Source of the DNA: Ruminococcus flavefaciens ATCC 19208
GTDB taxonomy: Bacteria > Bacillota > Clostridia > Oscillospirales > Ruminococcaceae
DNA length: 64,000 nucleotides
Direction: 5' to 3'
NCBI RefSeq assembly: GCF_000518765.1
Contig: NZ_JAEF01000024.1
Span: 1-64,000 of the forward strand
Shown: piece after piece, positions 5,516-28,785 of the stretch
Position numbering within the stretch: the stretch's first letter is position 1
Layout of the letters: each line of letters begins with the position of its first letter
Program-made: the position numbers and the translations under genes
Notes under the pieces: generated by a model
Seen by the model: only the letters and a program-made list of their open reading frames with translations
Database searches by the model: none
What the model was told of the DNA's origin: nothing

Positions 5516-5533
5516 TGATTAGAGGTGTTTTAT

Positions 5534-6223
5534 ATGGTTTATGGATATTGTCGCATATCAAAGCCAACACAAAATATTGAACGACAAGAGAGAAATATTT
5601 TATCTCACTTTCCAACTGCAACTATTTATAAAGAAGTTTATACTGGTGTGGTTATAAATCGTGCTTCTTGGTTGAAACTCTGCAAAGTGGTAAGAAAGGG
5701 AGACACAATTATATTTGATAGCGTTTCCAGAATGAGCCGTAACGCCAAAGAGGGCGTAGAGCAGTACATGGAGTTGCTCGATAAAGGTATTGAGCTTGTT
5801 TTCCTGAAAGAGCCTTATGTTAATACCGAAAATTATAAGCAAGCTCTAAGTGGTGGCGTTGAACTTGTTGGTAACGATATAGCCGATGTTTATATTGAAG
5901 CAACCAATAAGGTTTTAAAGATACTCGCTGCTAAACAGATAGAGTTGGCTTTTGAGCAATCTGAAAAAGAAGTAATGGACATTCGACAGCGTACAAAAGA
6001 AGGTATCGAAACAGCACGTTTGAACGGTAAGCAGATTGGGAATGTTACCGGCAGAAAGATGGTGATAAAAAAAGAAGCTCCTGCAAAAGAACTGATAAAG
6101 AAACACTGTAAAACCTTTGGTGGAACACTTAATGATGACGAGTGCATTCAATTGGCTAAGATTAGCAGAAATACTTATTATAAATATAAACGGGAAATCA
6201 AAGATTTAATTAAGAATAGTTAA
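5534..6223 (+). CDS. Serine recombinase (resolvase/invertase family)
   Basis: The product is 229 residues from ATG 5534, which has AGAGGTG six bases upstream; a GTG at 5525 is part of that site. The catalytic domain opens with YGYCRIS, the Y-x-R-x-S active-site signature in which the serine attacks DNA. It continues with the RQERNIL, GDTIIFDSVSRMSRNAKEG and ELLDKGIELVFLKEP blocks, then the long helix E. The C-terminus has an arginine/lysine-rich helix-turn-helix (ISRNTYYKYKREI). Resolvases and invertases of this class are 180-230 residues, so it looks full length and of the small type rather than a large phage integrase. It probably recombines sites close to its own promoter. It may be the agent that moved or rearranged the surrounding repeat-bracketed segment. 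Confidence 0.85.
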   Translation: MVYGYCRISKPTQNIERQERNILSHFPTATIYKEVYTGVVINRASWLKLCKVVRKGDTIIFDSVSRMSRNAKEGVEQYMELLDKGIELVFLKEPYVNTENYKQALSGGVELVGNDIADVYIEATNKVLKILAAKQIELAFEQSEKEVMDIRQRTKEGIETARLNGKQIGNVTGRKMVIKKEAPAKELIKKHCKTFGGTLNDDECIQLAKISRNTYYKYKREIKDLIKNS

Positions 6224-10885: not shown

Positions 10886-11293
10886 TTAAGAATCACCTTT
10901 GATTTCTTCTATCAGTTTAATAAGCCTTTTTTCATTAATCTCACATTCCCACAAAACTATTACATTCCAGCCTTTTTCTTTCATTAACTCGTGATTCTTT
11001 TGGTCTCGTTTCTTATTATTTATAAGTTTATTAGACCAATAATCAGTGTTAGATTTAGGCCATACAAAATTTTCACAATCATGCAAATGCCAAAAGCATC
11101 CATTAATATAAATAGCTATTCTGTATTTGGGCATAATTATATCCGGTTTTCCAGGATAACGTTTATCATTTTTCCTGAACCTAAGACCGTTTCGGTGAAG
11201 AAAGCTTCTGACAAAAATCTCAGGTTTCGTATCTTTACTTCGAATATGAGACATATTCATACTTCGAACTTCTTTGCTATGATTGTCAGCCAT
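10886..11293 (-). CDS. vsr: Very-short-patch-repair (Vsr) DNA mismatch endonuclease
   Basis: The product is 135 residues. Vsr nicks DNA 5' of the T in T:G mismatches formed when 5-methylcytosine deaminates. Visible motifs are MSHIRSKDTKPE at the N-terminus, KPDIIMP with the catalytic aspartate at residue 51, NGCFWH with the aromatic wedge residues 67-68 and a histidine at residue 69, and LWECEI near the C-terminus. The numbering coincides with the E. coli enzyme (D51, F67, W68, H69). The residue matching E. coli H64 is asparagine here. It lies directly downstream of the C5 methyltransferase (22-base gap), the usual pairing, since the methylase creates the lesions that Vsr repairs. Confidence 0.95.
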   Translation of the reverse strand: MADNHSKEVRSMNMSHIRSKDTKPEIFVRSFLHRNGLRFRKNDKRYPGKPDIIMPKYRIAIYINGCFWHLHDCENFVWPKSNTDYWSNKLINNKKRDQKNHELMKEKGWNVIVLWECEINEKRLIKLIEEIKGDS

Positions 11294-11315
11294 TATTACT
11301 CCTGTTTTTAATAAA

Positions 11316-12917: not shown

Positions 12918-12936
12918 TTTGTTTATCACCTAGAAT

Positions 12937-15057
12937 TTACTTTAATTTTGGAGGGAATCCTTCTCCTATAGCCTTTTCGCGTAAAGCCAATAAATTTTTA
13001 CATTGCCAATCATCCGGGAAATATCCCATTGACATTTTAATTGCTATTTTTAGCGCTTTGGCTTCTGTTATTGTTGCCAAGTTATGTTTTTGAATCCAAA
13101 GACTCAACTGTTTCCAATATTCTTCGCCCAATTCAAGCACTTGTTTTTGTGAATCAATTGTATTTTCAATTTTACGAAGTTCTCTGGCTTCTCGTTTGGT
13201 ATTATTTTCCTCTTCATATCCTTGAAGAATTGAGTTTAAACCATGAACAGGAGTTATTGTCATAGATTTAATCTTTTCCCAGCAAGCAGCTTGTTTACAC
13301 CATTGCGTAACATTTTCTACAGGTCTATCGTCCGATGTAATTGAATAATAAACCTTCTCAGCTATAATCATCATTTGCGTTATTAATACATCCGGACATT
13401 TTTGTTTTTGCCAGATTTTTTGTAAATCAATGGTTTTATCTGGGAACCATTTACGGATTAAATGATGTAATAGTGCAGTGGAATATGCAACTATATTGGC
13501 TTTATAACCGCCCTCATACCATTCCTGTTTAGGTATCAATTTATCGGTAGTTCGGTAAATAATAACTAAAGATATAGCGTTCATAAAATAATTATCATTA
13601 AAATCATCTTTTTTTGTTTCCCACTGTGCTTCGGTTCTTTTGGCAAACTCTGAGAAGTTTGATTCAGCTCCTTTGCTTACAATATGTGGATACTCATCCC
13701 ATGCACTTAGAACTTTTGCTAAATCAGTTTTTGTAACAACTTGATCTTTAGGATTTTGCGTTGCAAATTTTCTTTCTTCAGACTTTGTCATATTCATCGT
13801 TGCTTGTATGTACTGACCTCTTGCACGTTCATAGAACCAGTGTGTTTCATGCTGTGCGCCGTCTTTAGCAGGAGCAAATTTGCGCCTTGAAATCTGTTCC
13901 AACCTAATATGATATTCATGGGTGGAAAAGAAATCTGCTGCTTTTATTTGATTTTGGCTATTTGCACTTTTTGAAATTACTGGTACCATAGTTGCGGCCA
14001 ATTCAGGTTTAACTTGTGTCAGTTTCATTAAAACATACACTTTAGATAAGTCAGCTCCACTGCCTCTTCTGACAGATGAAAGAGTTGCTGTTGTTTGACC
14101 TCCATTTACTATCTGAAGATCTTTTGCAAAAATTAATTTTCCGTTTTTTACTACAGTATCAATTGCAGTAGCTGCCAAACCGTTATTGTACACAAAAAAT
14201 CTCTCAGGTTCATTTAGGACGGTATTTCTTATATCTTTATTTACACCTCGTTTTCCTAAAAATGAACGAACATTTCCTTCAAGCATTCTGCTTCCGTATT
14301 CATCGTATAAATCAGCAATAACATTTCCCGGAACAGTGCACAAATAACTTATGCATTCATCGTTGCTGTCACCTGAGTTTGCAAGAAGGCACGGAACACC
14401 GCCTTCAATGTAATCATTAAAATCGATTTCTATTTCCTCGTGACTATTTCCGTTGCCAAATATTCTAAAAAAACGCGGCATATCCCATATTCGGTACTCA
14501 ACATCGATATCGAGTATAGGTTCAGCATCTAGCACTCCTGTTCTTTTGCTCTTTTTTCTTTTTGATGATGTATTATCAGTTATATTTGCTCTTTCACTAA
14601 GAGACATATCTGTTAAGAGTATAATCACAAATTTTGAAATATACTTTGCTTGATCAGCAATGTAAGATGCAAGATCATAAGCGGCTGTACTGATTTCTAT
14701 TCTGGATGCAAGCTCATGTTCAATAGCATTGGAGGCAAAAGCCCTGCATCTATCCAATGCAGTTTTGGCTTCGCTTCCTATTAAGGTTTCACTTTCACTG
14801 CTTCCAGAAAATGTTGCAACAAGTAAATAGAATGATCCATCATGTTCATCAAAAGCATAACCATTAACATTCAATGCTGCATTTCTATATCCATTGCCCT
14901 GATAGTAGCAAGGAGTATATTCAGGAAGAACGTCTCCTTCGAAGAGTTTTAGCGCACATATTTTAACAAAACTGGCAACCGTTCCATTAGCTTCACTTTC
15001 TTCTGTTGCAAGAGCATCTTCAAGAAAATCTTTTCTGTATTCCTCAAAACTTTGCAT
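12937..15057 (-). CDS. AIPR-family protein (abortive infection phage resistance)
   Basis: The product is 706 residues, the usual size of AIPR (Pfam AIPR) proteins. The family signature is clear around residues 285-330: FFVYNNGLAATA, then LQIVNGGQTTATL, followed by VLMKLTQV and ISKSANSQNQIKAADFF. No signal peptide or TM segment is seen. AIPR proteins were first linked to plasmid-borne abortive infection in lactococci and recur in operons with Z1, GHKL and PD-(D/E)XK genes, as here. The biochemical activity is not settled for the family. It lies 21 bases downstream of the PD-(D/E)XK gene and 19 upstream of the methylase. Confidence 0.9.
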   Translation of the reverse strand: MQSFEEYRKDFLEDALATEESEANGTVASFVKICALKLFEGDVLPEYTPCYYQGNGYRNAALNVNGYAFDEHDGSFYLLVATFSGSSESETLIGSEAKTALDRCRAFASNAIEHELASRIEISTAAYDLASYIADQAKYISKFVIILLTDMSLSERANITDNTSSKRKKSKRTGVLDAEPILDIDVEYRIWDMPRFFRIFGNGNSHEEIEIDFNDYIEGGVPCLLANSGDSNDECISYLCTVPGNVIADLYDEYGSRMLEGNVRSFLGKRGVNKDIRNTVLNEPERFFVYNNGLAATAIDTVVKNGKLIFAKDLQIVNGGQTTATLSSVRRGSGADLSKVYVLMKLTQVKPELAATMVPVISKSANSQNQIKAADFFSTHEYHIRLEQISRRKFAPAKDGAQHETHWFYERARGQYIQATMNMTKSEERKFATQNPKDQVVTKTDLAKVLSAWDEYPHIVSKGAESNFSEFAKRTEAQWETKKDDFNDNYFMNAISLVIIYRTTDKLIPKQEWYEGGYKANIVAYSTALLHHLIRKWFPDKTIDLQKIWQKQKCPDVLITQMMIIAEKVYYSITSDDRPVENVTQWCKQAACWEKIKSMTITPVHGLNSILQGYEEENNTKREARELRKIENTIDSQKQVLELGEEYWKQLSLWIQKHNLATITEAKALKIAIKMSMGYFPDDWQCKNLLALREKAIGEGFPPKLK

Positions 15058-15078
15058 ATTATACCCCCTTTTTATTTA

Positions 15079-16014
15079 TTAATCTGCTTCCCAGTCGTAA
15101 ATTGCAGGAATGCTGAGTTCGTAACTGCCTTGAATTATTGCATTTTGAAGTTGACTGCGTCTCAACCGAGGAAAAGAATCATTGACAGAGTATTTCTCTA
15201 ATTTGCAAAACTTATAATACTCTTCAGAAACTTCATCGTCTCTTTTATAGCCGCAAAATGATAATCTGTTTTCCCAAATTGTTATAGTACGTTGATCAGA
15301 ACCGATAATTTGTTCAATCTCTTCTACAAGTTTGTTCAGTGTGAAAGAATCTTCAGATTCTGCTGCTCTTTCAACTCTACAAATAATGATAAAACCATCG
15401 TCAGAAATATCAAGTTGATCGAGAGATGTTATATTAATTGTACTCTTGCTTAGAGATATTGTTTTGACCTCATACCATAAGTCTGAGAACGTAAAATCTC
15501 TATCCGAGTATAATGGTCCCATCCATCCTTCAACTGATTTAGATATGCCATATTTAGGAATACAAATATCTTTAAGAACTAATAATTCGCCTATAAGTCC
15601 TTTGACCTGATTCTGACTCATTCCTTCACTACGGTCTTTTTCAAATAGCCTTTGCCATTTTTTGAATCTGTTAATTACTTTTTTTACTCCCGTTGTTTCA
15701 TCAGAAGAATTATATGAGCAATCAACTAGATCCCAACATAATGAAATAAACATTTCTTTCAAAGTTGAATCTGTCAAAGAAAAGCAAATTGCATATTTAT
15801 GATCAGCTCTTTCGTTAGCTCTAACTTTTATTTGTTTGCTTGATAATGGCATTTTAGGCAGATAACTTGATATAAGCATGATTTGCATATTTTCATCTTC
15901 ATCATATGACACGAAAAAGCTTAATGGATGAGCCGGATCAATTCTGCGACCAACGTTATTCTGTCCTTGAGGGTTAATAGAATTCCATAGGGAAAGAAGT
16001 TCAATCTTCGTCAT
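15079..16014 (-). CDS. PD-(D/E)XK motif protein (DUF4420-type putative restriction nuclease)
   Basis: The product is 311 residues. ATG 16014 is preferred, with GGAGG about ten bases upstream; an in-frame TTG precedes it. The centre holds the nuclease core: GLIGELLVLKDI (helix with the conserved glutamate), WMGPLYSDRDFTF with the metal-binding aspartate, and WYEVKTIS giving the E-x-K pair. The length and order match DUF4420 proteins, which are always found in this type of operon. It should cut DNA or position the cut for the complex. Its start overlaps the end of the Z1 gene by 14 bases, indicating translational coupling. Confidence 0.88.
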   Translation of the reverse strand: MTKIELLSLWNSINPQGQNNVGRRIDPAHPLSFFVSYDEDENMQIMLISSYLPKMPLSSKQIKVRANERADHKYAICFSLTDSTLKEMFISLCWDLVDCSYNSSDETTGVKKVINRFKKWQRLFEKDRSEGMSQNQVKGLIGELLVLKDICIPKYGISKSVEGWMGPLYSDRDFTFSDLWYEVKTISLSKSTINITSLDQLDISDDGFIIICRVERAAESEDSFTLNKLVEEIEQIIGSDQRTITIWENRLSFCGYKRDDEVSEEYYKFCKLEKYSVNDSFPRLRRSQLQNAIIQGSYELSIPAIYDWEAD

Positions 16015-18760
16015 CAAGCTGATCCTCCTCTATTTCATCATCCATGTATTCTCTTTGCTCAACAAGATTAAGATAATAAACCGCATATATTGGCTCTGAA
16101 CCAGCAGATCTTGGGAATCCCATGCCATAACCTACTATCAAATCATTATTCATATCAAAATCATCAATAGCATTTTCTGAGTCAGGTAATAAGTAATGTA
16201 TTATTATAATTGGGTTTCTTCCCTTAATGAGATATGCTCTGTCAGGGAAGCTCATTTTGCTGAGTTTATCTTCAGCTGCATTTCCGTATTTTTTCTCGTA
16301 TTCACTTCTTTTATATTCGCGGAAATCGTTTTCTGCTTCAGCTTTTTGTTTATCCGTAAGTCCATACTTGGTTAATCCCATAGTACCAATTCTTAGCTTG
16401 CTACCATATACGCTATATGGTACAGGCTTTCTTGAAAAAGGTCTTTTAGTCGGACGAATTGGTATGCCGCAGATTCTATGGGAAATTTCAGAGGATTTAC
16501 TTGAATATACAAGGACATCCCAAGTCTCAAATTCATTATTATTCTTTATATATTTGATTAGTGTGTCGGAATTGGCTTCCATATTCATAGGGTGATTGTT
16601 ATACTTGCTTAAATAATCACAAATTATATCACTCGGGACATTTGTCCAAAACAGAGGTTGCTTACCGCTTCCGACAGGATTGCCACATTGCGTTATAATA
16701 TCTTTCAAGAAACTGTCAGTTCTATTTCGATTGCCTCTAATTATATCTATATTTGGGCGGAAACGAGGAGTTTCAAAGAAAGATCCATCCAGAGTTATCC
16801 AGCGTTCAACTCGTTCGGAGTGTTTCATTTTGTTTTTGGCAGTTATAATAAGAGTTGTTGGATGTGCACGTACCTTTAATCCAAATTCCTTTGGAGTTGC
16901 TCCGAGACGATTCATTCTGGAAATCTCTTCACGTAGTTCGTTAGCTGCCTGTGTGATATGAGCATACCAGCCTATGGCATCGTCCGGCATCCAAATTCTG
17001 AACAAATCCTCATAGCCGCTTCTATAACCAAACCATCTGCCCATCTGCATTAATGTATCATACATTTGAGTGTTTCTATGGAAATAGCTTACCATCAAAC
17101 CTTCAAGAGTAAGTCCTCTTGATAGGCTTAAACCACCAACGGCAATAACTCTAAGGCCAGTATCATTATACATAGCATAATCCAGCATTTTTGTACTGCT
17201 TTTTTGGTTGATTGTTCTAACTTCAATAGGTGAAACAGCATTATAAAGGTATTCTTTTTGAATTATTTCCCACGGAATAGCATATTTTTCAAAAAATGGA
17301 TAATTTGTTTTATACCAGTCTTCTCTTAAAGCATTAAGAAATGGATTTTTGCAAGCTTCTTCTTCGTCAAGCATACAATAGTGCTTAATATCCTGAATGC
17401 TCTCGAATAGCCATTCATTTATTTTTTGACTTATCTTGTTTTGAACTAAGACAAATCGACTTACATTTACTAACATCGATCTATGTGCGGTTTTATCGCC
17501 ATTAATATCACGTGCTACATTTGCTAATATAAAGTACCTTAATGCCGAATATAAACTATCGGGCAATGAATTAATTGGTATATCTTGTTTATGCTTATAT
17601 GGGAAATAATCACCTGCATCGTCAAGTGTTGCTAATGATTTCGAATAAGAAGCATCATCACCAAAAAGCTCGTTACTGCCAATATAGTTTGTTGGAGCAT
17701 CGAGTGAATATATATAGTCTGATGGAAATAAGTCATCATTTTCCATTTCTTCTGTTTTTTCAGGAAGAATGAAAATATTGGCAAAAGGAGTAGCTGTAAC
17801 AGCTATATAAGAGCTTGAATTAAAAAGACTTAATAATTTCCGTATATGACGATTAATAGTAGTAGGGTTATTATCTTCTTTTGTGTTTATAGAAGCATTA
17901 TCTGCTTCATCATCAATAAGAAGCAGTGGGTAATTAATCTTTCCATTGCCTTTTTTGTTATCCTCAAGCCAACCTATTAAGTTTTCCAGCGTCCTTGCGT
18001 TTTTCTTTAATACAAAAACAACAGGTTCTTTTGTCATATTATCAAGATTGACATTCATGCTATTTAGAGTTGCTTTTTTGAAATCACTTGCCTCAGTAGT
18101 GAATCCGGTAGCAAATCTGTTAGCATCCTTTAATCCAACACCTTTACGAAGTGTTTGACTGTTGCGTTGCAAGTAAGCCTTACTGCTTCGACCAATAAAT
18201 CCTTCATCGACACGTTCTTGTGTTTGTCGTCTTAAGCTTTCAACTGTTCCAGTAAGAAGAATTATTACTCTATAACCGACATCAGCAGCTTTGTTCATAA
18301 TAGCAATATAGTTAGCCGTTTTACCTGACTGAACATCACCTATAAGTAAACCTCGCCTGTGAAGTATTCCGCCTGATTGAGGATTTCCCGCAAGATCTAC
18401 AATTTTATCTGATACATTATCTATTGTTGCAATAATATTTGAAGGACGTTGCATATCTTCTTCCAGATATAAAACATATCTATTCCAATAATACCAATAA
18501 TCACTGCTTTCTTTAGCTTTCAAAGCATTAAGCCATGGTGTGTATGGTGTTTCAATTGAAATACCTACATCCATTTCAACATCTAACGCTGACTGCAACT
18601 TTTTTATTACAAAATCAATTTCATTTTCTGTAATATCTGGGAGCATAGGCTTTACCATATCACTTGCTTGCTGAAGTTCATCTTCTTTAGGCACTCTATT
18701 GGGAGCAATGTTTTTTAAACAAGCTCGAACAAGATCTTCAAAAAGTTTTAAATTAGCCAT
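16001..18760 (-). CDS. Z1-domain helicase-like ATPase
   Basis: The product is 919 residues. The Z1 domain is a superfamily II helicase-like module known from these restriction-type operons. Walker A is GDVQSGKTAN at about residues 141-150. LLTGTVESLRRQTQERV follows as motif Ia. Walker B is LLIDDEADNASIN near residue 280, and VTATPFANIF is a motif III-like block. GLSLSRGLTLEGL and QMGRWFGYRSGYEDLFRIW near residues 545-600 are the C-terminal helicase motifs. There is no TM segment. It probably translocates or remodels DNA for the partner nuclease. It overlaps both neighbours (8 bases with the GHKL gene, 14 with the PD-(D/E)XK gene), a tightly coupled operon. Confidence 0.92.
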   Translation of the reverse strand: MANLKLFEDLVRACLKNIAPNRVPKEDELQQASDMVKPMLPDITENEIDFVIKKLQSALDVEMDVGISIETPYTPWLNALKAKESSDYWYYWNRYVLYLEEDMQRPSNIIATIDNVSDKIVDLAGNPQSGGILHRRGLLIGDVQSGKTANYIAIMNKAADVGYRVIILLTGTVESLRRQTQERVDEGFIGRSSKAYLQRNSQTLRKGVGLKDANRFATGFTTEASDFKKATLNSMNVNLDNMTKEPVVFVLKKNARTLENLIGWLEDNKKGNGKINYPLLLIDDEADNASINTKEDNNPTTINRHIRKLLSLFNSSSYIAVTATPFANIFILPEKTEEMENDDLFPSDYIYSLDAPTNYIGSNELFGDDASYSKSLATLDDAGDYFPYKHKQDIPINSLPDSLYSALRYFILANVARDINGDKTAHRSMLVNVSRFVLVQNKISQKINEWLFESIQDIKHYCMLDEEEACKNPFLNALREDWYKTNYPFFEKYAIPWEIIQKEYLYNAVSPIEVRTINQKSSTKMLDYAMYNDTGLRVIAVGGLSLSRGLTLEGLMVSYFHRNTQMYDTLMQMGRWFGYRSGYEDLFRIWMPDDAIGWYAHITQAANELREEISRMNRLGATPKEFGLKVRAHPTTLIITAKNKMKHSERVERWITLDGSFFETPRFRPNIDIIRGNRNRTDSFLKDIITQCGNPVGSGKQPLFWTNVPSDIICDYLSKYNNHPMNMEANSDTLIKYIKNNNEFETWDVLVYSSKSSEISHRICGIPIRPTKRPFSRKPVPYSVYGSKLRIGTMGLTKYGLTDKQKAEAENDFREYKRSEYEKKYGNAAEDKLSKMSFPDRAYLIKGRNPIIIIHYLLPDSENAIDDFDMNNDLIVGYGMGFPRSAGSEPIYAVYYLNLVEQREYMDDEIEEDQLDDED

Positions 18761-20228
18761 CGTTATTCAACTCCTCTGTAAGATATTCAACTATTTTTTT
18801 ATAATTGCAAAACGGATCGGTTTGAATCATTATTTGTATTTGCTCACTGCGCATTGGGTTGTCTTTAATATTATTAAGTATGATTTTTGCGAATTCCCAA
18901 GCCTCTGCTTCGGCATCTTTTTCTTTTCTGACATTAACTTGTTCTTCATTATTCAAATCAACATATAACTGATTTAAAGGAAGATTACCCTCAACAAGTT
19001 TGAGGTAATTTTCAAGCAATGACTTCTGTGCTGAATCTAAGGATTCACATAAAGTGTTTAGAAAAATGTGATCGCGATTAAGATTATAAACCACACCTTC
19101 TCTTATATGTGTCTTATTCCAAAGATGATTGCCTTTATCGCTTATTTCACGTTTTCCGCGAAAAGTCCATGCACGCTTGCTACCTTCTGAAATTCGTTCT
19201 ACAATTCGTTCCAAATTCTTTTTAATTACATCAGGCGGAATTGCAGAGGATTTTCTTATATCTAGTGTCCATAAATGATCGAGTGCATTAGGAATGTCCA
19301 CTCGTATTCTTGCTAATTTGGACAATTCATCTTTCCTGTGGAATCTAAACCAGGTTCCCCACACTAATAAACGCTTATTTCTGTATATGTAAAATCCTTG
19401 ATTCTTTGTTAGTCCTTCACTACCGCCAAGTTCATCCTTTTCTTGACGTGTCAACTTGCTGATATGCGGAAGCATATAACAAGATACATTAACAATATGC
19501 TTTTCAATAATAAATTTTTCATCTGCCTGAAAATTTGTACTTTTACCGATAAGAAACGGATCCTTAGGTGTTAACGGTAGCTTATTGATATTTATACTTA
19601 TTTTTTTAATTCCCGTTTCTCCAGATAAATACCTATGAAAGACCAATGAAAGGTGATTTCGTACATAGTCCATTTGCTTATTCATGATTTTATCTGTAGC
19701 AGTAGCACCTTCGAGCATCCTGTCTAAGTTTTCCCATATTACTAATGTTCCATGTTCAAGCTCTTTTAATTGAATATTGTATTGAGGGATTTTATCTATA
19801 TCAGCTTTATCTAGCTTAATCAATGACCAAGAACCAGTACGATAAACTTCGTCCAAGTCCCACCTTCGCCCTTCAAGAACAGCACCTTGTTTAGAAATTA
19901 CGGTAAGGCAACGACATTGTGAAAGAGAAGCTGTTTTTAAGCCCAAGCCAAATCTTCCTAAATCATTTTCAGCTCGATCTTTTAAAGAACTCTGGCTGCC
20001 ATATCGCATAGCATTATTAATTTGCGTTTCGTCCATTCCTACACCATTATCTAAAATTGAAACATATGGAACAGCATCATATGGGGAGAAGAAAATATTG
20101 ATCTCATTAGCTGATGCAGCAACACTATTATCGACAATATCAGCAATTGCAGCTTCTAAATTATATCCTATTGCTCTTGTGGATTCCATAAGAACTGGTG
20201 CAAAAGGCGGCATATCAATTATTTTCAT
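18753..20228 (-). CDS. GHKL ATPase of the MutL/MORC type
   Basis: The product is 491 residues. The N-terminus is a histidine-kinase-like (Bergerat-fold) ATP-binding domain: N-box EAAIADIVDNSVAA, G1 DNGVGMD, then GRFGLGLKTASLSQC. A transducer-like segment follows that keeps the S5-type fold of MutL/MORC (KNQGFYIYRNKRLLVWGTW, then ARIRVDIP). There is no histidine phospho-acceptor or TM segment, so it is not a sensor kinase. Iyer, Abhiman and Aravind described such ATPases next to Z1, DUF4420, AIPR, Dcm and Vsr as restriction-modification systems related to the origin of eukaryotic MORC proteins. ATP-driven clamping on DNA is the likely role. Confidence 0.9.
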   Translation of the reverse strand: MKIIDMPPFAPVLMESTRAIGYNLEAAIADIVDNSVAASANEINIFFSPYDAVPYVSILDNGVGMDETQINNAMRYGSQSSLKDRAENDLGRFGLGLKTASLSQCRCLTVISKQGAVLEGRRWDLDEVYRTGSWSLIKLDKADIDKIPQYNIQLKELEHGTLVIWENLDRMLEGATATDKIMNKQMDYVRNHLSLVFHRYLSGETGIKKISININKLPLTPKDPFLIGKSTNFQADEKFIIEKHIVNVSCYMLPHISKLTRQEKDELGGSEGLTKNQGFYIYRNKRLLVWGTWFRFHRKDELSKLARIRVDIPNALDHLWTLDIRKSSAIPPDVIKKNLERIVERISEGSKRAWTFRGKREISDKGNHLWNKTHIREGVVYNLNRDHIFLNTLCESLDSAQKSLLENYLKLVEGNLPLNQLYVDLNNEEQVNVRKEKDAEAEAWEFAKIILNNIKDNPMRSEQIQIMIQTDPFCNYKKIVEYLTEELNNDG

Positions 20229-20890: not shown

Positions 20891-23446
20891 ATGTCCAACA
20901 TTATTAAATTCAAAATTGTAAGTAATCCATATAAAGAGGATATAAAATTTGGCACTATAGATGAAAACTCTAATCAAATGATAGAAGTATCAAAAGATGA
21001 AAACAGTGATTTGAATAGCGATGAAATAAGAAAAGGTTTCTTTCCTTATAATGTAAAGAAAATAATTAACGAAATAATAGCTATGAAATCTAAACAAGGA
21101 AATGTTATTCAGATAGAATTTGAAGGAACTGATGATGAATTTTCTGAGTTAGAAGAGCTATGCCAAGAAAAAGAATACCAGAACAGAATCGAGCTTTTGC
21201 CTCAAACAAGATACCTAAATAATGCAAAAGATATACTTCCAAAGATTGCCGAAATTTTTCAGGAGATGCAGCCTCTAATTGCTGACAGCATTAATTCTAA
21301 TCCAGAAATAGCTTTGATGAGAAAAAAATTCGATGAAGCTGTTGATAATAAAAAAATCCCCATATGTGTTATTGGTAATTACAGTTCGGGTAAGTCAACA
21401 TTTATAAATGCGCTTATTGGCAAGGAGATATTACCAAGTGGAGATGATCCAATAACTGATTGTGTGTATCAGCTTAATCGTTCACACAGTTCAGAATCAG
21501 GTTATGTTGAATTTGATTATTTTAATTTACCATTAAAAATATCAATAGAAAAACATAACAGCAGAGGAAAAGGATGTGTTATTTCTGGTCCGGGCAAACG
21601 TGATGATGAATTTATGTGTGAAATACAAGATGAGATGGATAAACTTACAGCGAGTTCTATCCATGTAAGAATTCATTTTTTACTTGTTTTAATTGAAAAA
21701 CACAAAAAGAAATTAAAAAGGAATAATATTGAGAAAGATATTAGTTCATTAATAAAAATCAATCTTCCTTTCAGTAAAGAAGGCGTTCTTTCTCAATCAC
21801 AGTATAATTATGTAATATTTGATACTCCTGGAGAAGGTTCTGCAACGAATATTGATCACTCTAAAATTCTTGAACAGCAAATGCAACTTTTATCTAATGG
21901 CCTTATAATGTTTATTACTGATAATAAATCACTTGATAAAGTTGAAGGAAGGGATTTGTGTGAGAAAATAATATCAATGAATTGTTTTGACAAAAGATTT
22001 ACCATGGTTATTGCTAATCGTGCAGATAGTGCACGATTACCTAAAGATGGCTATTTTGAACCTGAAGAAATAGAGGATAAGCTTAGTCAAACTGTATGTA
22101 GGACATTACAATCAAATCGAATTTTTTATGTTTCATCTATTGTTGGATTAGGTTCAAAACAGGAAGATGACTTTATCGATGAAGATTATCAAGATGTGTA
22201 TGACAAAGAAATCGAGTCATATCTTAATCCAAATTCAAAACATCCTAAAGCTTTATATAAATCAAATATTATTCCAGTGCAAATAAAGAATAAATGTGTT
22301 AAGTGGTCGGAGGAAGAACCCAATAAAGCATTTGCTAATAGCGGACTATTTTGGATTGAACAGGAAATTAGATTATTTGCTGAAGTACATTCACCCTATA
22401 ATAAGTGCACTTTGTCAAAGAAATTCCTTGATGAAATAATCTCTGAAACGACAAATCGCATTGTTAAAAATGTTAAGCAGTGTGAAGTAACAAAAAAAGA
22501 GTTGAATGAAAAACTCATAAATGACAAAAACGAATTTATTATTTCACTTGATAAAAAAGTAAAGGAAGTTGGAGATGAAATTGCTGCTAATTATCCAACC
22601 AAAGAGATGAAAGACATTACAGTAAAAGCATATAATTCTATAACGCGCGAATACTTAGATGAAAGACAAACAGCAATTGAAAAGGAAATCGGTGAAAAGC
22701 ATAACTATAATGAACTAAAAAGCGCACCTGTTTTGACTCAAAAAGATGCCGCTGACGCCCCCCCTGAAAATTCTAAATCGTTTACTGCGTATAAGCAGAA
22801 AAAAGAGTATAAAAAGAATCTTCATGATCTTGAAAAACAAATTGAAAAAGAAGTATCCGAATCTCTTCTCAAAGAAATAAAAGAACAATTTACCCAAGAC
22901 ATTCACGGTAACCAAACTAAACTAGAGATGGCTTCACAAAATTATTGGTTACAAGCTTCAGAATCATTTAAAAATACAATGATAGATTATGTAACTAAGT
23001 CAGAGGGCATAAGTGATGAGAAAAAAATAGAACTTGAAAAGATAATTGCGGATTATAAGACTTTAACATTCGAAAAAAATGCGGATATGGTTTTTGTTTT
23101 TTCAGAATTGACAAAGCATTGGCTCAAAATAGGTAGTTTTGTTATTGGAGCTTCCAACTCTCTAAATCTTAATAAATTAAAGACAAGATATAACTCTTCA
23201 ATGCGTGATAATACCAGTGAAATGCTAAATAAGCTTAAAACGAGCCATGAAGGCAGTTTTAAGACATGGAAAAGCAACTTAATCAATGATCTTAAAGACA
23301 ACATCATAAAATTAAACCCTGATCTAAGAGATCTTAATAATAGTATTATTCAGCAAGAAGAAAACATTGCAAAATCAGAGAATACCAAAAATCGTTTAAA
23401 TGACTATAAGGTACAGATTGAAAATTTAATGAACTGGATTCAATAA
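20891..23446 (+). CDS. Dynamin-like GTPase
   Basis: The product is 851 residues. An N-terminal region of about 155 residues has no recognised domain. The large GTPase domain follows: G1 GNYSSGKST (about 162-170), a threonine in the DPIT segment as G2, G3 FDTPGEG (about 311-317) and a G4-like NRAD (about 375). The long spacing between G1 and G3 is typical of bacterial dynamin-like proteins. The C-terminal 350 residues are lysine/glutamate-rich helices and coiled coil (KKEYKKNLHDLEKQIEKEV). No strong TM hairpin is apparent except a weakly hydrophobic stretch near HWLKIGSFVIGAS. Bacterial dynamins bind and remodel membranes, and some protect against phage lysis. It starts a four-gene operon, 16 bases before the HerA-like gene. 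Confidence 0.88.
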   Translation: MSNIIKFKIVSNPYKEDIKFGTIDENSNQMIEVSKDENSDLNSDEIRKGFFPYNVKKIINEIIAMKSKQGNVIQIEFEGTDDEFSELEELCQEKEYQNRIELLPQTRYLNNAKDILPKIAEIFQEMQPLIADSINSNPEIALMRKKFDEAVDNKKIPICVIGNYSSGKSTFINALIGKEILPSGDDPITDCVYQLNRSHSSESGYVEFDYFNLPLKISIEKHNSRGKGCVISGPGKRDDEFMCEIQDEMDKLTASSIHVRIHFLLVLIEKHKKKLKRNNIEKDISSLIKINLPFSKEGVLSQSQYNYVIFDTPGEGSATNIDHSKILEQQMQLLSNGLIMFITDNKSLDKVEGRDLCEKIISMNCFDKRFTMVIANRADSARLPKDGYFEPEEIEDKLSQTVCRTLQSNRIFYVSSIVGLGSKQEDDFIDEDYQDVYDKEIESYLNPNSKHPKALYKSNIIPVQIKNKCVKWSEEEPNKAFANSGLFWIEQEIRLFAEVHSPYNKCTLSKKFLDEIISETTNRIVKNVKQCEVTKKELNEKLINDKNEFIISLDKKVKEVGDEIAANYPTKEMKDITVKAYNSITREYLDERQTAIEKEIGEKHNYNELKSAPVLTQKDAADAPPENSKSFTAYKQKKEYKKNLHDLEKQIEKEVSESLLKEIKEQFTQDIHGNQTKLEMASQNYWLQASESFKNTMIDYVTKSEGISDEKKIELEKIIADYKTLTFEKNADMVFVFSELTKHWLKIGSFVIGASNSLNLNKLKTRYNSSMRDNTSEMLNKLKTSHEGSFKTWKSNLINDLKDNIIKLNPDLRDLNNSIIQQEENIAKSENTKNRLNDYKVQIENLMNWIQ

Positions 23447-23462
23447 TCATGGAGGTGTTTAA

Positions 23463-26400
23463 ATGGGATTAATGAAGATAATTTCAGGAGCCACATCAAA
23501 GGTTAATGATAAAATTTCCAAAGCAGCAGCTCTAAGCCCTAAACAACTAAGTGATATAGCTGATAAAAGAGAAAATTACCTTCTCGAAATGCCTAAACCT
23601 AATGATGTGATTGCTCAGGCTACAACGGAAAAATTAATTGCTGCTAATAGTATTGAAGTATTTAATGCTTATCTGCCGCAAATATCAAAAATATATTCTC
23701 CAATTGAAAAGGATTTTTTCGATAGTGAGTATAATATACGATATTTTAATATTACAAAATGGGTTACTGACAAAAAGGAAAATAGCCTTGAAAAACTTGT
23801 AAATGTATATGCTGTTTTATCTGATGAAACATGTAATATTGCCCTTGTTTTTCATAGAAAATGTCAAGAAACACAAGTGTATCTAGCTGTAACCAATACT
23901 AAAAACGCTAACAATAATAATGATGCTGATACGTACAAAAAGCGCCTTCAGGAAGCTATAAAAGGGAATTTTCCTGGTACTGAATTTGGTATTGACTCTG
24001 GAAGCGGTATTCCGCCTTTTCTAAATAATGATATTCCTTATTCTGTTGCATCAGCCTCAAATATTCCAACGGAAAAATCAGAAAAATTTATTAGTCAAAC
24101 TATTGAAAAACTATTGGACGGTATTGTCCCTAGTAAAAATAAGGAAGAATATACCTTGATTTTACTAGCTTCACCAATAAATGATGTCGAAGATAGAAAA
24201 CTTCGACTTGCAGAGATATACACTGGTTTAAAGCCATATGAATCATGGCAAACAAATTTTACTTTTACTGAACTACACACAGAAGGTTCAACAGCTACGG
24301 TTGGTGTGAATGTTGGTGCAAGTGCTGGTATTCAGAATGGGCAGACATCATCTGCTACGAATTCTGACGCTGTTGCTAATAGTGAAAGTGATACAGAGAC
24401 AGACACAACGAATGATGGAACTTCAGATACAAATAGTGAAATGAACTCTGATATGACTTCAGACACTGACACGACGGCAAATTCACATACTGATAATAAA
24501 TCATCTTCAAATACAGATACAAATACTATATCAAACACTGATAATACATATGAGGCTACAAGTGATAATAAAAATGTTAATGCTTCTTTGATTCTCGTTG
24601 GCGGCGGAAGTAGTTGGGGAACAACATCTGGCTCTGGTAAAGCAAGTACAACTGCTAAAGGAACAGCCAAAACACTAATGGAAGGCTCGGCTGATACTGT
24701 AACTAATACAGCGGCTAAAACCGTTGCCAAGACTCTTGCTAATACTGTTTCTAAAACGACTTCAAGTCAAGTTGGGCATGCTGTTGCCAAAACACTTGGA
24801 AAAACAGTTACTAATACCCTATCAAAAACAGCTGGAGTATTTAGCAGCACTAGCTTAGGTGTGAATTTTGGAATGAATTTTGCTCGTTCATCAAATGTAA
24901 GTGCATCAGTTGGAAAAAACGAAGGTATTGTACAGTCGTTTGAAAACTACAATATAAAGCATGCTTTAGAATTGCTTGAAGATCAAATGAAACGCTTAGA
25001 ACAAAGTACCGCTCTTGGTATGTGGGATTTTGCAGCATATGTTCTTTCTGAAGATAGAAATGTTGCAAATAATGTTGCTCATACTTATTTGTCATTAACT
25101 CAAGGTGAATCGTCATATATGTCAAGTTCAGCTGTCAATCTTTGGAGAGGTGACATAGAAAGTACTGACATTTATGCAAAAACGATATGCAGTTACTTAA
25201 GAGAATTACGACATCCAATATTTGCTTTAAATCCTGACATAGTTAATTCAAAAGAAGGAAAAGACTTTCAAGTTTATCCAACAGTTGTAACAGCAACAAC
25301 AAGTCTTTCCGGTAAGGAACTTGCATATTCATTGAATTTTCCGCAAAAATCCATTTCTGGACTGCCTGTTATTCAATGTGCAGATTTTGGAAGAAGTGTA
25401 TCTTCTTTTGAGATTTCTCCTGCTGAAGAGGAAAAATATTATTTGGGAAACATTTTTCATATGCTTCATGAGGAGAAGCTTCATGTAGAATTGTCACCAA
25501 ACGCTATGACATCCCATACGTTTATTACCGGAAGTACCGGTTCCGGTAAATCAAATACTGTTTATCAATTACTAAGTGAAGCGATAAATGATGGGAAACA
25601 TTTTCTTGTAATTGAACCTGCAAAAGGCGAGTATAAAAACGTATTCGGCAATGAAGAAAATGTAAGCGTATTTGGAACGAATCCATATTTGATGCCTTTG
25701 TTAAAGATCAATCCGTTTAGTTTTCCGAAAAAAATACATATTTTAGAACACCTTGATGGATTGATTGAAATATTTAATGTATGTTGGCCAATGTATGCTG
25801 CAATGCCGGCAGTATTAAAAAACGCCATTGAAAGCGCATATGAAGATTGCGGTTGGGATTTAAAAACTTCTAAAAATGCTTTTTCAGATGACTTGTATCC
25901 CAATTTCGATGATGTTGTTCGCAATATAAAAAAGATAATTGATTCAAGTGAATATGACACCGAAAACAAAGGTGCTTATAAAGGCTCGCTTATTACAAGG
26001 CTTAAATCATTAACAAATGGTATTAATGGAATGATTTTTACAAATGATGAAATATCAAGTGAAGCTTTATTTGAAAACAATGTTATATGCGATTTGAGCA
26101 GGGTGCGTTCCAACGAAACCAAATCATTAATAATGGGACTTCTAATTTTGAAACTTCAAGAATATCGCTTAGAAAGTTCTAAAATGAATGCTGATTTACA
26201 ACATATAACTGTAATTGAGGAAGCTCACAACCTTTTGAAGCGTACTTCAACAGAGCAGCCTGTTGAAGGAGGTAATCTGCTTGGCAAAAGTGTCGAAATG
26301 CTTTCGAACTCAATAGCCGAAATGCGAACATACGGTGAAGGATTTATTATTGTGGATCAATCACCTGGATTGTTGGATATGTCTGTAATTCGTAATACAA

Positions 26401-27053
26401 ATATCAAGATTATAATGCGCCTTCCAGATGAAAATGACCGTATTCTTGTAGGAAAAGCTGCAAATCTCAATGATGATCAAATTATTGAAATCGCCAGATT
26501 TCCAAGAGGTGTTGCTGCTGTATACCAAAACGAATGGGTTCAGCCAGTATTATGTAAAGTTAAACATGTTGAATATGAGGAGACTCCTTATAACTATACA
26601 CCATGTAAGTCAGAAATAACAGAACTAAACTTTAATGATAAAATACAAATAGCTAAACTATTATGTAATGGTATTCGGATTGATAAAGAACAATTTATAA
26701 GGGAAATAAAACCAAAGTTAACCAATGCCAATCTTTCCTCATATATTCAAGTTCTTATTCAAAAAACTCTAAATAATCCTCCTAATCAAGCTAATATGGA
26801 ACAAATCGGAGAGATTGTACGAAGTTTATTCCCTGATCTTTACTCCGAAACCAAGAAGATTTGTTCGGATACTTCTGACAAGAAAGCATGGACAAATCAT
26901 ATTGAAACATTGCTTTTACAGAAATATAATCAAGATATTGATGATATTACTAGACGGTATATTATTCATGGCTTAGTTCTTGCATATGTATACTTGCATC
27001 TCAATGATGTAAATACATTAAAAGATTGGACGGAAATGGGGGGGTTAAAATGA
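23463..27053 (+). CDS. HerA/FtsK-type ATPase with a long low-complexity insert
   Basis: The product is 1196 residues. Residues 1-275 form an N-terminal domain found before the motor in VirB4/HerA-like proteins. Residues about 280-480 are extremely rich in S, T, N, D, A and G: first an acidic repetitive tract (TSDTDTTANSHTDNKSS), then alanine/threonine repeats of the form AKT(L/V)..T. The motor has Walker A TGSTGSGKSNT (about 690-700), VIEPAKGEYKNVFG, and Walker B VIEEAHNLL (about 915), followed by the HerA block with NSIAEMRTYGEGFIIVDQSPG and IKIIMRLPDENDR. HerA motors pump DNA or work with nucleases such as NurA; VirB4-type motors drive secretion. The next gene, an HNH nuclease, overlaps by four bases (ATGA), so coupling is tight. 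Confidence 0.88.
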   Translation: MGLMKIISGATSKVNDKISKAAALSPKQLSDIADKRENYLLEMPKPNDVIAQATTEKLIAANSIEVFNAYLPQISKIYSPIEKDFFDSEYNIRYFNITKWVTDKKENSLEKLVNVYAVLSDETCNIALVFHRKCQETQVYLAVTNTKNANNNNDADTYKKRLQEAIKGNFPGTEFGIDSGSGIPPFLNNDIPYSVASASNIPTEKSEKFISQTIEKLLDGIVPSKNKEEYTLILLASPINDVEDRKLRLAEIYTGLKPYESWQTNFTFTELHTEGSTATVGVNVGASAGIQNGQTSSATNSDAVANSESDTETDTTNDGTSDTNSEMNSDMTSDTDTTANSHTDNKSSSNTDTNTISNTDNTYEATSDNKNVNASLILVGGGSSWGTTSGSGKASTTAKGTAKTLMEGSADTVTNTAAKTVAKTLANTVSKTTSSQVGHAVAKTLGKTVTNTLSKTAGVFSSTSLGVNFGMNFARSSNVSASVGKNEGIVQSFENYNIKHALELLEDQMKRLEQSTALGMWDFAAYVLSEDRNVANNVAHTYLSLTQGESSYMSSSAVNLWRGDIESTDIYAKTICSYLRELRHPIFALNPDIVNSKEGKDFQVYPTVVTATTSLSGKELAYSLNFPQKSISGLPVIQCADFGRSVSSFEISPAEEEKYYLGNIFHMLHEEKLHVELSPNAMTSHTFITGSTGSGKSNTVYQLLSEAINDGKHFLVIEPAKGEYKNVFGNEENVSVFGTNPYLMPLLKINPFSFPKKIHILEHLDGLIEIFNVCWPMYAAMPAVLKNAIESAYEDCGWDLKTSKNAFSDDLYPNFDDVVRNIKKIIDSSEYDTENKGAYKGSLITRLKSLTNGINGMIFTNDEISSEALFENNVICDLSRVRSNETKSLIMGLLILKLQEYRLESSKMNADLQHITVIEEAHNLLKRTSTEQPVEGGNLLGKSVEMLSNSIAEMRTYGEGFIIVDQSPGLLDMSVIRNTNIKIIMRLPDENDRILVGKAANLNDDQIIEIARFPRGVAAVYQNEWVQPVLCKVKHVEYEETPYNYTPCKSEITELNFNDKIQIAKLLCNGIRIDKEQFIREIKPKLTNANLSSYIQVLIQKTLNNPPNQANMEQIGEIVRSLFPDLYSETKKICSDTSDKKAWTNHIETLLLQKYNQDIDDITRRYIIHGLVLAYVYLHLNDVNTLKDWTEMGGLK

Positions 27054-27685
27054 TTGAAGCATTGGCAAAGGCAGCTGAAACAGCTGCAAAAGCAGAAAAA
27101 ATTGCAGAAGTCAAAAATATTGGTTCAAAAGCATTTGATCCACGAAAACCGATTGATATCATTAATAAAGAATTCAAGATAAACGATAAGCCTAATTTTG
27201 ATCCTCAAAAGCCATTAGATATCAAAACAGATAAGTCTTTGGTTCAAAATGAAGTTCGAGGTAATAAAGAAGTAAGTGAATTGATAAAAGACTATTTAAA
27301 TGATTTAAAAAGCAAATCTGAATGTCCTGACACGCTTAATGAAACACCTTTTAAGGAATCTGATTTAAGAAAAATTAGTCCCGAAGAAAACGTTTCAGCT
27401 CGTAAAGATTTTGATAACAAAAAAGCAGATCTAAGAAAACAATGGGAAGAGAAAACTGGAAAGGAGTGGCCTGTTTACAAAGAAGATGTTTATTCAGATT
27501 CAAGGGCTTTAATAAGGCAAGCCGGAACCCCATATGATGCACATCATATTCAACCACTAGAGCTTGGCGGAAAGAATGAAGTTGATAACATTACTCCAAT
27601 TCATGCCAAAGATCATTATGATAAGCAAGGAGTGCATGCGCCAAACAGCCCATATAGCAACTTGGTGAAGAAAATAGGAGGATAA
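27050..27685 (+). CDS. HNH-family nuclease, toxin-like
   Basis: The product is 211 residues from ATG 27050, which overlaps the stop of the HerA gene. The C-terminal 60 residues carry an HNH/ENDO VII-type nuclease: SRALIRQAGTPYDAHHIQPL, then LGGKNEVDNITPIHAKDHY, with paired histidines, the central asparagine and a final histidine. This form is common as the C-terminal tip of polymorphic toxins. The N-terminal part has alanine/lysine helices followed by the twice-repeated motifs FDPRKPIDI and FDPQKPLDI, which may be a docking signal for the HerA protein. There is no signal peptide. A SUKH-like gene starts three bases after its stop, the classical toxin-immunity layout. Confidence 0.82.
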   Translation: MIEALAKAAETAAKAEKIAEVKNIGSKAFDPRKPIDIINKEFKINDKPNFDPQKPLDIKTDKSLVQNEVRGNKEVSELIKDYLNDLKSKSECPDTLNETPFKESDLRKISPEENVSARKDFDNKKADLRKQWEEKTGKEWPVYKEDVYSDSRALIRQAGTPYDAHHIQPLELGGKNEVDNITPIHAKDHYDKQGVHAPNSPYSNLVKKIGG

Positions 27686-27687
27686 AA

Positions 27688-28050
27688 ATGACTATTAAAG
27701 AATACTTAGGCAAAATAAAAGAGCTTAAAATTGATGAGATAAAAGTTAATCATATTGAAAAACAATATTCAGAAGGAATACCCAAAAATGTAAAGCGGTT
27801 AATATCTAATTGTGACAAGACTATCTTTTTTGATAACGATAACATTCTTAGACTTCTTTCCTTTTCTGAAATAATGAACGCCGAAAAAGATTTACACGTT
27901 GATTTTAAGTCGAGAAATATGATTCCTCTTTTTGATTGTGGTGATAACGACTTTATAGTTTACAATTATAAAGATGCTAATTGGGCAAAATTCAATATAA
28001 TTGATGAAGTCATTTTCAAAACTGAAAACAATTTAGAAGAAGTGTTTTGA
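27688..28050 (+). CDS. SMI1/KNR4 (SUKH)-like immunity protein
   Basis: The product is 120 residues, acidic overall. The C-terminal half MIPLFDCGDNDFIVYNY, followed by a WAKFNIIDEVIF strand, matches the SUKH pattern in which a strand ends in F...G.ND.../Y. The family is an immunity group for nuclease toxins. The position two bases after the HNH nuclease gene, preceded by GGAGG, and the strong terminator that follows suggest it is the dedicated inhibitor. The N-terminal 40 residues are more divergent, so the assignment rests on the C-terminal pattern and context. Confidence 0.72.
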   Translation: MTIKEYLGKIKELKIDEIKVNHIEKQYSEGIPKNVKRLISNCDKTIFFDNDNILRLLSFSEIMNAEKDLHVDFKSRNMIPLFDCGDNDFIVYNYKDANWAKFNIIDEVIFKTENNLEEVF

Positions 28051-28056: not shown

Positions 28057-28100
28057 TATCCCTCTATTTCATAAGAAATAGAGGGATAAATTTTTTATAT
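28057..28100 (+). terminator. Terminator of the dynamin/HerA/HNH/SUKH operon
   Basis: TATCCCTCTATTTC and GAAATAGAGGGATA form a 14-bp stem with a loop of about 4 bases, followed by TTTTTT. Confidence 0.9.
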
Positions 28101-28107: not shown

Positions 28108-28136
28108 TTGACATCCCCATTGTGATGTGATATAAT
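28108..28136 (+). promoter_or_regulatory. Consensus promoter of the structured RNA
   Basis: TTGACA (28108-28113), 17 bases, TATAAT (28131-28136), with an extended TG just before the -10. No open reading frame follows, only structured sequence up to the tRNA gene. Confidence 0.85.
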
Positions 28137-28142
28137 AAATTC

Positions 28143-28640
28143 TGTAATATAAAAAAGCACCTCGCAAGGAGCATCAGAGCTGGTAACTCTGACACTCCTG
28201 ATAATCAGACAGATGCAGCAACATCTGAATGACTTAGCAAGATGGCTATTTTGCGTGTATTATTATATCACGTTGAATATAGTATTGTCAAGCCTTTCAG
28301 TGTATGTTTTGCGGCATCAGACTGAAAGGTTTGTTTTTATATATTACCGTGAACAATGGTAACTTGACAATTAAATATATAGATTTGAAGCGAAGGTAAG
28401 CATATAGTAAATAGCGGTTTAATATGCTTTTCACACTTTACATTAATGAGCCATGACGTGAGCCTGTTTAGTAGAACTAAATCAACTCTTGGGTTTGTCA
28501 AGACAAGGCAGTATTCTGTATTGCCGTTGTTACAAGTAACAACGTAAAAAGTATCACGAGCCATATAAAGTGTAGAAAGCGAATAGGTGGACAGTACCAT
28601 ACCAGCTCGGTGACACCTATTCGAGAACAAACAACAGCTG
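28143..28640 (+). ncRNA. Candidate large structured non-coding RNA
   Basis: This stretch has a perfect promoter, no credible coding frame, and nested complementarity. In the 5' part, AGGAG/CTCCT encloses CAGAG/CTCTG, then come CAGATG/CATCTG and GCAAGAT/ATTTTGC hairpins. A stem CCTTTCAGT (28293-28301)/ACTGAAAGG (28321-28329) with a T-rich tail could end a first transcript. In the 3' part, AAGCATAT (28398-28405)/ATATGCTT (28422-28429) precedes a long-range stem ACACTTTA (28433-28440)/TAAAGTGT (28566-28573). Inside it CGTGA (28457-28461)/TCACG (28554-28558) closes a junction holding four hairpins at 28467-28481, 28487-28503, 28507-28525 and 28526-28543. A final 10-bp stem is CGAATAGGTG/CACCTATTCG (28580-28623). 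G-U pairs in two stems fit only the plus strand. No Rfam family is assigned; size and tRNA-proximal position recall ROOL/GOLLD RNAs. Confidence 0.6.
28293..28338 (+). terminator. Terminator-like hairpin inside the structured RNA region
   Basis: CCTTTCAGT and ACTGAAAGG pair across a loop of about 19 bases and are followed by TTTGTTTTT. It would give a first RNA of about 195 nt, or it may be part of a longer folded RNA. Confidence 0.55.
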
Positions 28641-28664
28641 TCAAATCAAACTATAGTTCAGTAA

Positions 28665-28696
28665 GTAAAAAACGGTTCACTGAACAGTGAACCGTT
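28665..28696 (-). terminator. Terminator of tRNA-Gln
   Basis: AACGGTTCACTG and its perfect complement (28671-28696) are followed on the minus strand by a run of T. It ends the leftward tRNA transcript and meets the structured RNA from the other side. Confidence 0.8.
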
Positions 28697-28709: not shown

Positions 28710-28785
28710 TGGTTGGGGTGGAAGGATTTGAACCCTCGAAATAACGGAGTCAGAGTCCGCTGCCTTACCACTTGGCGACACCCCA
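28710..28785 (-). tRNA. tRNA-Gln (anticodon CTG)
   Basis: The seven-base acceptor stem TGGGGTG/CACCCCA, a D-arm with AGTGGTAAGGC, the anticodon stem GCGGA/TCCGT around the loop CTCTGAC (anticodon CTG, reading CAG) and a T-arm with GGTTCAAATCC all fit. The discriminator is A, and CCA is encoded (28712-28710). It lies at the right edge of the AT-rich island, a usual insertion point for integrative elements, although no second copy of its 3' end was found on the left. Confidence 0.95.

Follow-up and report, generated by a model that had tools for sequence, protein, structure and literature searches.

The closest counterparts in design to the locus reported here are controls of plasmid replication. 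The two RNAs of ColE1 measure 108 and 555 nt. The shorter one, RNAI, lies antisense over the 5' end of the untranslated RNAII and its loop sets specificity. Altered RNAI loops can yield compatible origins, a difference in sequence alone being no guarantee of this (PMC9458437). In pT181, an 87-nt antisense RNA brings about termination within the rep leader, and in staphylococcal plasmids of the pIP501 type a leader of ~320 nt has an antisense promoter halfway along and a terminator ahead of rep (PMC5703833). Two other kinds of system bear comparison, namely ROOL and GOLLD, large structured RNAs that are often near tRNA islands (PMC12286853), and the integrative elements and islands that target tRNA genes.

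In Ruminococcus flavefaciens ATCC 19208 we analysed a contiguous stretch of 64,000 nucleotides, hereafter the window, in which a region beside a tRNA-Gln gene is a conserved RNA organized as two convergent genes and not as one RNA. Both promoters, structure on both strands, a terminator, conservation, placement at tRNA genes and divergence of the loops are all evident from the sequences compared. Like pT181 RNAI and pIP501 RNAIII, this unit has an antisense promoter inside a long leader (57/63 copies, judged by sequence), a short antisense RNA complementary to that leader and, just past the antisense stretch, an intrinsic terminator recognizable from its sequence (hairpin P4 with its T-tract). 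Unlike them, it has no rep gene that could be seen after the terminator, it is chromosomal and located at tRNA 3' ends, its leftward RNA is a closed three-way junction, and many of its copies continue into a structured RNA with a motif resembling one from rrn operons. As in ColE1, a short antisense RNA covers the 5' end of an untranslated RNA of ~500 nt, and we propose that here too a loop sets specificity; however, the plasmids searched do not carry the unit, which possesses a terminator of attenuator type and offers no evidence of an origin or a primer. Membership in a plasmid replication family was considered and rejected, as no rep gene or replicon was found.

With ROOL and GOLLD the unit shares being a large structured RNA near tRNA genes, whereas it has no Rfam match, consists of two opposed RNAs and lies beside one or a few tRNA genes of cells, not in phage tRNA islands. 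It resembles tRNA-targeted integrative elements and islands in occupying tRNA 3' ends next to variable cargo and in having integrases near some copies; in contrast to them, its conserved part is noncoding, one family serves 21 anticodons, cargo is optional and no att repeat was found for it in the stretches searched, mostly at most ~40 kb. Each ingredient is known, but we found no kind of system that joins opposed RNAs, the lack of a protein and a position at the tRNA 3' ends of 21 anticodons. No description of this RNA family was found in listings and abstracts of the open-access literature; it may correspond to an unnamed candidate in a set of 3,161 motifs (PMC8040213).

Two predicted convergent RNA genes beside tRNA-Gln

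The initial annotation had described this region as one structured RNA of about 500 nt read rightward from its own promoter. A structured RNA that covaries in its homologues does lie by the tRNA, yet it is not a single rightward RNA, its best conserved part being leftward; the minus-strand promoter at 28291-28262 and the leftward structured RNA were absent from that description. The conserved unit extends from ~28096 to ~28647 and, together with its immediate flanks, comprises the following features (plus, rightward; minus, leftward).

28057..28088, no strand assigned: terminator-like hairpin of 14 pairs, on both strands, between the upstream operon and the unit
28108..28136, plus: rightward promoter TTGACA-17-TATAAT, 12/12 matches, TG before the -10 box, visible in aligned relatives
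28143..28647, plus: predicted rightward RNA, its start placed from the promoter, its conserved domain ending at ~28647
28149..28255, minus: predicted leftward antisense RNA of ~105 nt, ends approximate; P0 encloses P2 and P1 and is followed by a U-tract at 28156-28151
28157..28165, minus: 3' strand of P0 of the leftward RNA, partner 28237-28246
28237..28246, minus: 5' strand of P0 of the leftward RNA
28167..28199, minus: hairpin P1, 28167-28179 with 28187-28199, apical loop 28180-28186
28205..28232, minus: hairpin P2, 28210-28215 with 28222-28227, outer TCA/TGA, copy-specific loop 28216-28221
28225..28236, plus: candidate antiterminator that may pair, weakly, with the P4 5' arm
28262..28291, minus: leftward promoter TTGACA-18-TATAAT, a second perfect promoter, TG before the -10 box
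28289..28338, plus: P4, putative terminator/attenuator, 28289-28301 with 28321-28333, then TTTTT
28363..28377, plus: motif resembling the rrn 16S-23S spacer (CTTGACAATTAAATA)
28382..28647, plus: 3' domain closed by 28382-28391 with 28637-28647, with an inner long-range helix and hairpins
28671..28696, minus: inverted repeat between the unit and the tRNA, presumably the tRNA terminator hairpin
28710..28785, minus: tRNA-Gln(CTG), convergent to the unit

The rightward promoter had been noted before as lacking a gene downstream, and this stands: no plausible gene lies between it and tRNA-Gln, the overlapping ORFs being short and unsupported. Relative to shuffled sequences the region is the more stably folded, with z -4.1 (plus strand) and z -6.6 (minus strand). 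The genome of the window contains the unit once; a second match there proved to be merely the upstream hairpin read backwards.

Over its whole length the leftward RNA is complementary to the opening ~105 nt of the rightward transcript; in the window it is predicted to fold at -46.6 kcal/mol (MFE; z -6.5) into a closing helix, P0, and two hairpins, P2 and P1. Over 63 aligned copies (62 distinct), 25 of its 28 pairs have changed on both sides with 93.8% of cells paired, and the covariation score is 0.671 vs 0.234 for shuffled and at most 0.161 for slid alignments; both-side changes occur in all 13 of the P1 pairs examined. The non-Watson-Crick cells comprise 225 G.U vs 19 A.C when read on the leftward strand. 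At least 10 of 12 positions of the leftward promoter are retained in 57/63 copies, where shuffles predict 3.3, and in the first 21 copies, inspected by eye, the -35 and -10 boxes are conserved at 17-18 nt spacing. The promoter and covariation counts are in part circular, as 34 of the 63 copies were fetched with R1, a covariance model of the 5' part of the unit that was built from 29 copies and includes the P1, P2, P4 and promoter columns; further copies in the P0 test and in the tRNA-placement count were likewise fetched with it. Independent of R1 are the placement at tRNA genes, P0, which lies outside the structure of the search model, and the 29 copies obtained by DNA similarity or pattern. 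Two rows were dropped, L042 being masked and L141 representing the same place as L048.

P0 was followed in a set from which five reverse-strand self-matches had been removed, leaving 78 of 83 rows. Its G.U pairs number 178 on the minus strand vs 2 on the plus strand, its duplex is more stable as minus strand in 72/78 copies, and its own partner is better than the mean of other copies' partners in 76/78. The GCAAGAT stem, whose G.U pairs had been taken to favour rightward transcription, belongs to this very helix and speaks for the opposite strand. For the first 105 nt of the match as a whole, the minus-strand fold is the more stable one in 79/80 copies, and the leftward RNA is retained also in copies without the 3' domain.

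Past the antisense stretch, P4 seems to have been retained as a terminator of rightward transcription, since its 5' arm hardly varies and its 3' arm changes mostly through U-A/U-G and G-C/G-U steps. In 29 copies, 95.2% of its cells are paired, and it accounts for every one of the 34 G.U cells that the 5' structure has on the plus strand, vs 3 A.C cells within it. Beyond P4, a strict pattern finds a CTTGANAANT-type motif in 34/65 rows, and a similar motif is present in the 16S-23S spacer before 23S in two genomes (G457 and G350); we take it to be part of the rrn boxA antitermination region. A pattern of the motif run against the genome of the window has no match there, and the window's own copy of the motif itself lies outside that pattern.

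The 3' domain was assessed in the 12 more similar of 21 aligned copies, nine that were too divergent or incomplete being left out. There, 15/50 predicted pairs covary, and the plus strand holds 30 G.U vs 7 A.C cells, 12 of those 30 belonging to one invariant pair. We regard the strand evidence for this domain as moderate, because the consensus folding energies are nearly equal on both strands (-64.1 plus, -60.2 minus). Of the structures described initially, several hairpins and an inner helix of long range show both conservation and covariation in these 12 copies. The 8-bp long-range stem is indeed present in the sequence (arms 28426-28443 and 28563-28580); among aligned relatives, its ACACTTTA/TAAAGTGT pairing is intact in the window and in L033 only. 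A hairpin at ~28507-28525 had also been adduced for rightward transcription; its 3' partner is lost even in L033. The 3' domain is missing from five copies (L155, L159, L164, L168 and L143), in which the tRNA lies at most 240 nt from the model start.

Relatives and placement at tRNA 3' ends

A DNA search of the genus returned relatives including one with 90% identity over 556 nt. The prevalence from this search, 33/125 genomes, was set aside in favour of the model figure of 19/125, since several of its matches span just ~40 nt of promoter and it overstates prevalence. R1 further matched 37/396 genomes of the family, in 24/126 sampled genera, 14/394 of the order, ten of them inside the family, and 4/391 of the class, two inside the family and the other two being L220 and L221. 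Outside the family, the order-level matches in G698 and G723 (E 6e-8 and 3e-6) stand beside convergent tRNA clusters; the weaker L182 and L184 have no tRNA nearby and may be chance matches. Scanning GTDB contigs with a pattern yielded 26 stretches, of which 21 came from Ruminococcus (many from R. flavefaciens) and five from MAGs labelled Oscillospiraceae, Clostridia or Lachnospiraceae. Some genomes are multi-copy; G457 (one contig) carries five.

Phages yielded one weak 38-nt match over the promoter region (E 0.06), a plasmid collection no match to the window's unit, and viral contigs no match with two patterns. With Rfam 15, the tRNA alone reached gathering level in the window and nothing relevant appeared at E<=5, and the gathering-level matches in 20 relatives were limited to tRNA, rRNA and pemK. 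The suggested membership in ROOL or GOLLD is thus not supported, unlike the other option offered with it, a new family, given a structured RNA with covariation that matches no known one; the homologues do covary, and the region is unlikely to be merely a decayed element end. The pemK RNA matches lie near two copies, at 1905-1956 (plus) in L142 and 1268-1327 (minus) in L152.

A convergent tRNA gene was found within 1.5 kb downstream in 73 of 76 assessable copies (four more of the 80 being too short to assess), on the opposite strand in 73/73 and with 21 anticodons altogether; L043, L165 and L190 are the copies without one. An upstream tRNA occurs in 0/73 copies with enough sequence, and in L222, which is outside the 80. 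In many genomes, homology at the tRNA-Gln locus starts at the tRNA 3' end (query 45/46, equal to 28709/28710), and at the Gln sites of four genomes (G013, G009, G010, G020) other sequence stands in place of the unit. Two copies in one genome (G012), at tRNA-Gln and tRNA-Met, are 92% identical over a stretch that opens 12 nt ahead of the -35 box and extends to ~+575; within it they differ at the promoter and start, in the P2 loop, in one short indel region and at the 3' end, and nowhere else. As these copies are alike across the unit while their flanks differ, transposition or gene conversion has thus copied just the RNA unit. Elsewhere, different tRNAs share the upstream cargo and the 5' half, and identity stops at ~+245 to +261; L044, L049, L050, L051 and L052 have cargo and the RNA 5' half in common at Leu, His and Trp tRNAs, with a breakpoint near the rrn-like motif.

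L222 (in G1253) is a cargo-free unit between tRNA-Met and tRNA-Leu. In G1248, a 46-nt spacer bearing a terminator-like hairpin lies between the same neighbours, and in G449 they are 44 nt apart. In L243 (G1249:C181), a P4-like hairpin alone lies between tRNA-Met and tRNA-Leu, and it could be either a remnant of the unit or a tRNA terminator ancestral to P4.

Ten upstream proteins, nine of them neighbours of other copies and one from the window, were submitted to Pfam, where 3/10 matched Phage_integrase and the rest were zeta toxin, Fic, ParE, MmeI, NERD-domain or unmatched. Repeats of the tRNA 3' end were absent from the window at 14-mer resolution and for L207, L205 and G012:C28 with 12-mers; 13-mers gave only tRNA-tRNA matches in G457, G240, G255, G287, G350, L034 and the window. 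The stretches searched for such att repeats were mostly at most ~40 kb, many contigs ending early. By eye, one of the copies without a downstream tRNA (L043, G102:C21) is followed by an ORF that begins much like the translation of a tRNA end and, further on, by ParA-like, MobC-like and relaxase-like ORFs; perhaps an element was inserted here between the tRNA and the RNA.

Proposed antisense-controlled attenuation and competing explanations

We propose that the unit consists of two convergent RNA genes at a tRNA 3' end, with no protein, in which the leftward RNA would control the rightward one by antisense attenuation in the manner of pT181 and pIP501, a reading to which we assign a probability of roughly 0.55. 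Transcription, the RNA ends, attenuation and the antiterminator are what we infer here from sequence features. The antisense RNA would meet the nascent rightward RNA by loop-loop contact at P2 and P1 before pairing with it in full, and this pairing would occupy a stretch able to hold the P4 5' arm open, such that P4 could form and transcription would stop near 28338. If the antisense RNA were scarce, RNA polymerase would continue past the rrn-like motif and transcribe the structured 3' domain. Owing to its variable P2 loop, each copy would respond chiefly to the antisense RNA that it encodes itself; the antisense RNA would limit a mobile unit, and a change in the loop would free co-resident copies. 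As to the purpose of such an arrangement, our guess is that it controls the copy number, or ensures the mutual tolerance, of a unit spreading from one tRNA gene to another, which would often mark the border of cargo and defence islands on the side of the tRNA.

The best average partner of the P4 5' arm is 28221-28240, with means of -6.5 and -6.3 kcal/mol vs -2.1 to -5.4 elsewhere. Changes in this pairing look compensatory in L175, L163 and L169 and contrary in L143 and L159, and the alignment shortened the P4 arms of L165 and L168. Because the best pairings are no better than those of shuffles (42/78, mean z -0.29), and because the candidate antiterminator fits its own P4 arm above other arms in 49/78, we consider attenuation likely rather than established. 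The attenuator is followed by no gene, the convergent tRNA gene being there in 73/76. In the four tRNA-Met copies L155, L159, L164 and L168, P4 almost abuts the tRNA, so that there would be little to attenuate in the integrated state. Since some copies have no 3' domain, this domain cannot be the whole purpose of read-through, and the tRNA end that is common to copies suggests control of a mobile unit.

Divergence between copies of one genome bears on the proposed specificity of the P2 loop, an antisense loop of 6-7 nt. In L039 and L040, 6 of 7 positions of this loop have changed, vs 0/17 in the P4 loop and 0/155 in the rest of the module; in L171 and L208 the counts are 4/7, 0/10 and 5/155. 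Over 13 hand-chosen same-genome pairs, changes amount to 45/91 in the P2 loop, 92/229 in the P4 loop and 336/2100 in the rest (P2 vs rest, p 6e-13; P4 vs rest, p 3e-16), the P2 loop being more divergent than the rest in 11/13 pairs and not in 2/13. P2 is thus singled out only in the two youngest pairs, and in older ones the P4 loop drifts as a free loop would; as the P4 loop is also variable over the 13 pairs, loop variation by itself is no proof of selection. That the P2 loops of a genome differ in 13/13 pairs is uninformative, because identity by chance is rare anyway: with loop bounds shifted by 2 nt, 78 copies hold 73 different strings. By eye, the loop sequence does not track tRNA type. 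The tip of P1 is variable too and occurs in reverse-complement forms (L044 vs L050 and L050 vs L052).

The same observations can be arranged differently. The leftward three-way-junction RNA could itself be the effector, as a trans-acting or protein-bound small RNA with the rightward RNA as its sponge or regulator. It is under the strongest structural constraint and persists where the 3' domain is missing; however, P4, with its plus-strand G.U pairs, and the 3' domain are constrained too, and the variable loop speaks against a single common target. We consider this explanation unlikely. We think it quite improbable that the unit is a ColE1-like replication control of an excisable island, in which the rightward RNA would prime or permit replication of a circle or drive genes across its joined ends. 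The layout, in which a short antisense RNA overlaps the start of a ~500-nt RNA, would fit such a control, as would the incompatibility-like variation of the loop and the integrase genes directly upstream of some copies (three of them Pfam-confirmed); yet the plasmid collection holds no match to the window's unit, phages offer just the weak 38-nt match and viral contigs none (two patterns), L222 is free of cargo, and neither a rep gene nor, in the stretches searched, an att repeat was found.

Little can be said for a large ornate RNA acting like ROOL or GOLLD, by RNA assembly, with antisense control added: although its size, its rumen hosts and the tRNA neighbourhood are as expected, the lack of an Rfam match, the several copies without a 3' domain and its absence from viral contigs (two patterns) render this idea highly doubtful. 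Even less credible is a recombination site or decayed mobile-element end whose hairpins act as DNA and whose promoters are incidental. Location at tRNA 3' ends and travel with cargo in some genomes speak for such a site, but neighbouring helices show opposite strand-specific G.U bias, which fits RNA and not DNA; moreover, the leftward promoter is kept in 57/63 copies and the structure is intact in other genera. Antisense attenuation remains our preferred reading. An extension of it, possible if on balance doubtful, is that the unit is a mobile element of ~0.3-0.7 kb without any protein that inserts precisely at many tRNA 3' ends and gives the tRNA a new terminator, its self-limiting sense/antisense pair sparing co-resident copies by means of copy-specific loops, while cargo and defence islands accrue on the far side.

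Neighbouring genes and significance

In the window, an island to the left of the RNA contains a Mza-type defence set (10886-20228, minus) with MzaB, MzaC, MzaD and MzaE (PADLOC), a C5 methylase and Vsr. The operon directly upstream of the unit (20891-28050, plus) encodes a dynamin-like GTPase, a HerA/DUF87-like ATPase with a long Ser/Thr/Asn-rich stretch, an HNH protein and a small protein without a Pfam match, and it is possibly an undescribed defence or toxin-immunity operon. A small serine resolvase is encoded at 5525-6223 (plus), and proteins with very similar starts are found upstream of the RNA in L049, L051 and L052. A functional tie between the RNA and the adjacent defence operon, which had been thought possible, is not borne out by the homologues, most of which keep the RNA and the tRNA with other upstream genes, one unit being cargo-free between tRNAs.

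Taken together, the unit combines antisense copy control with the insertion hotspots of tRNA ends without any protein, if our preferred reading of antisense attenuation is correct. It may help to explain why tRNA 3' ends accumulate islands of cargo and defence genes. In addition, its near-identical paired copies with different loops would be natural candidates for orthogonal antisense switches.
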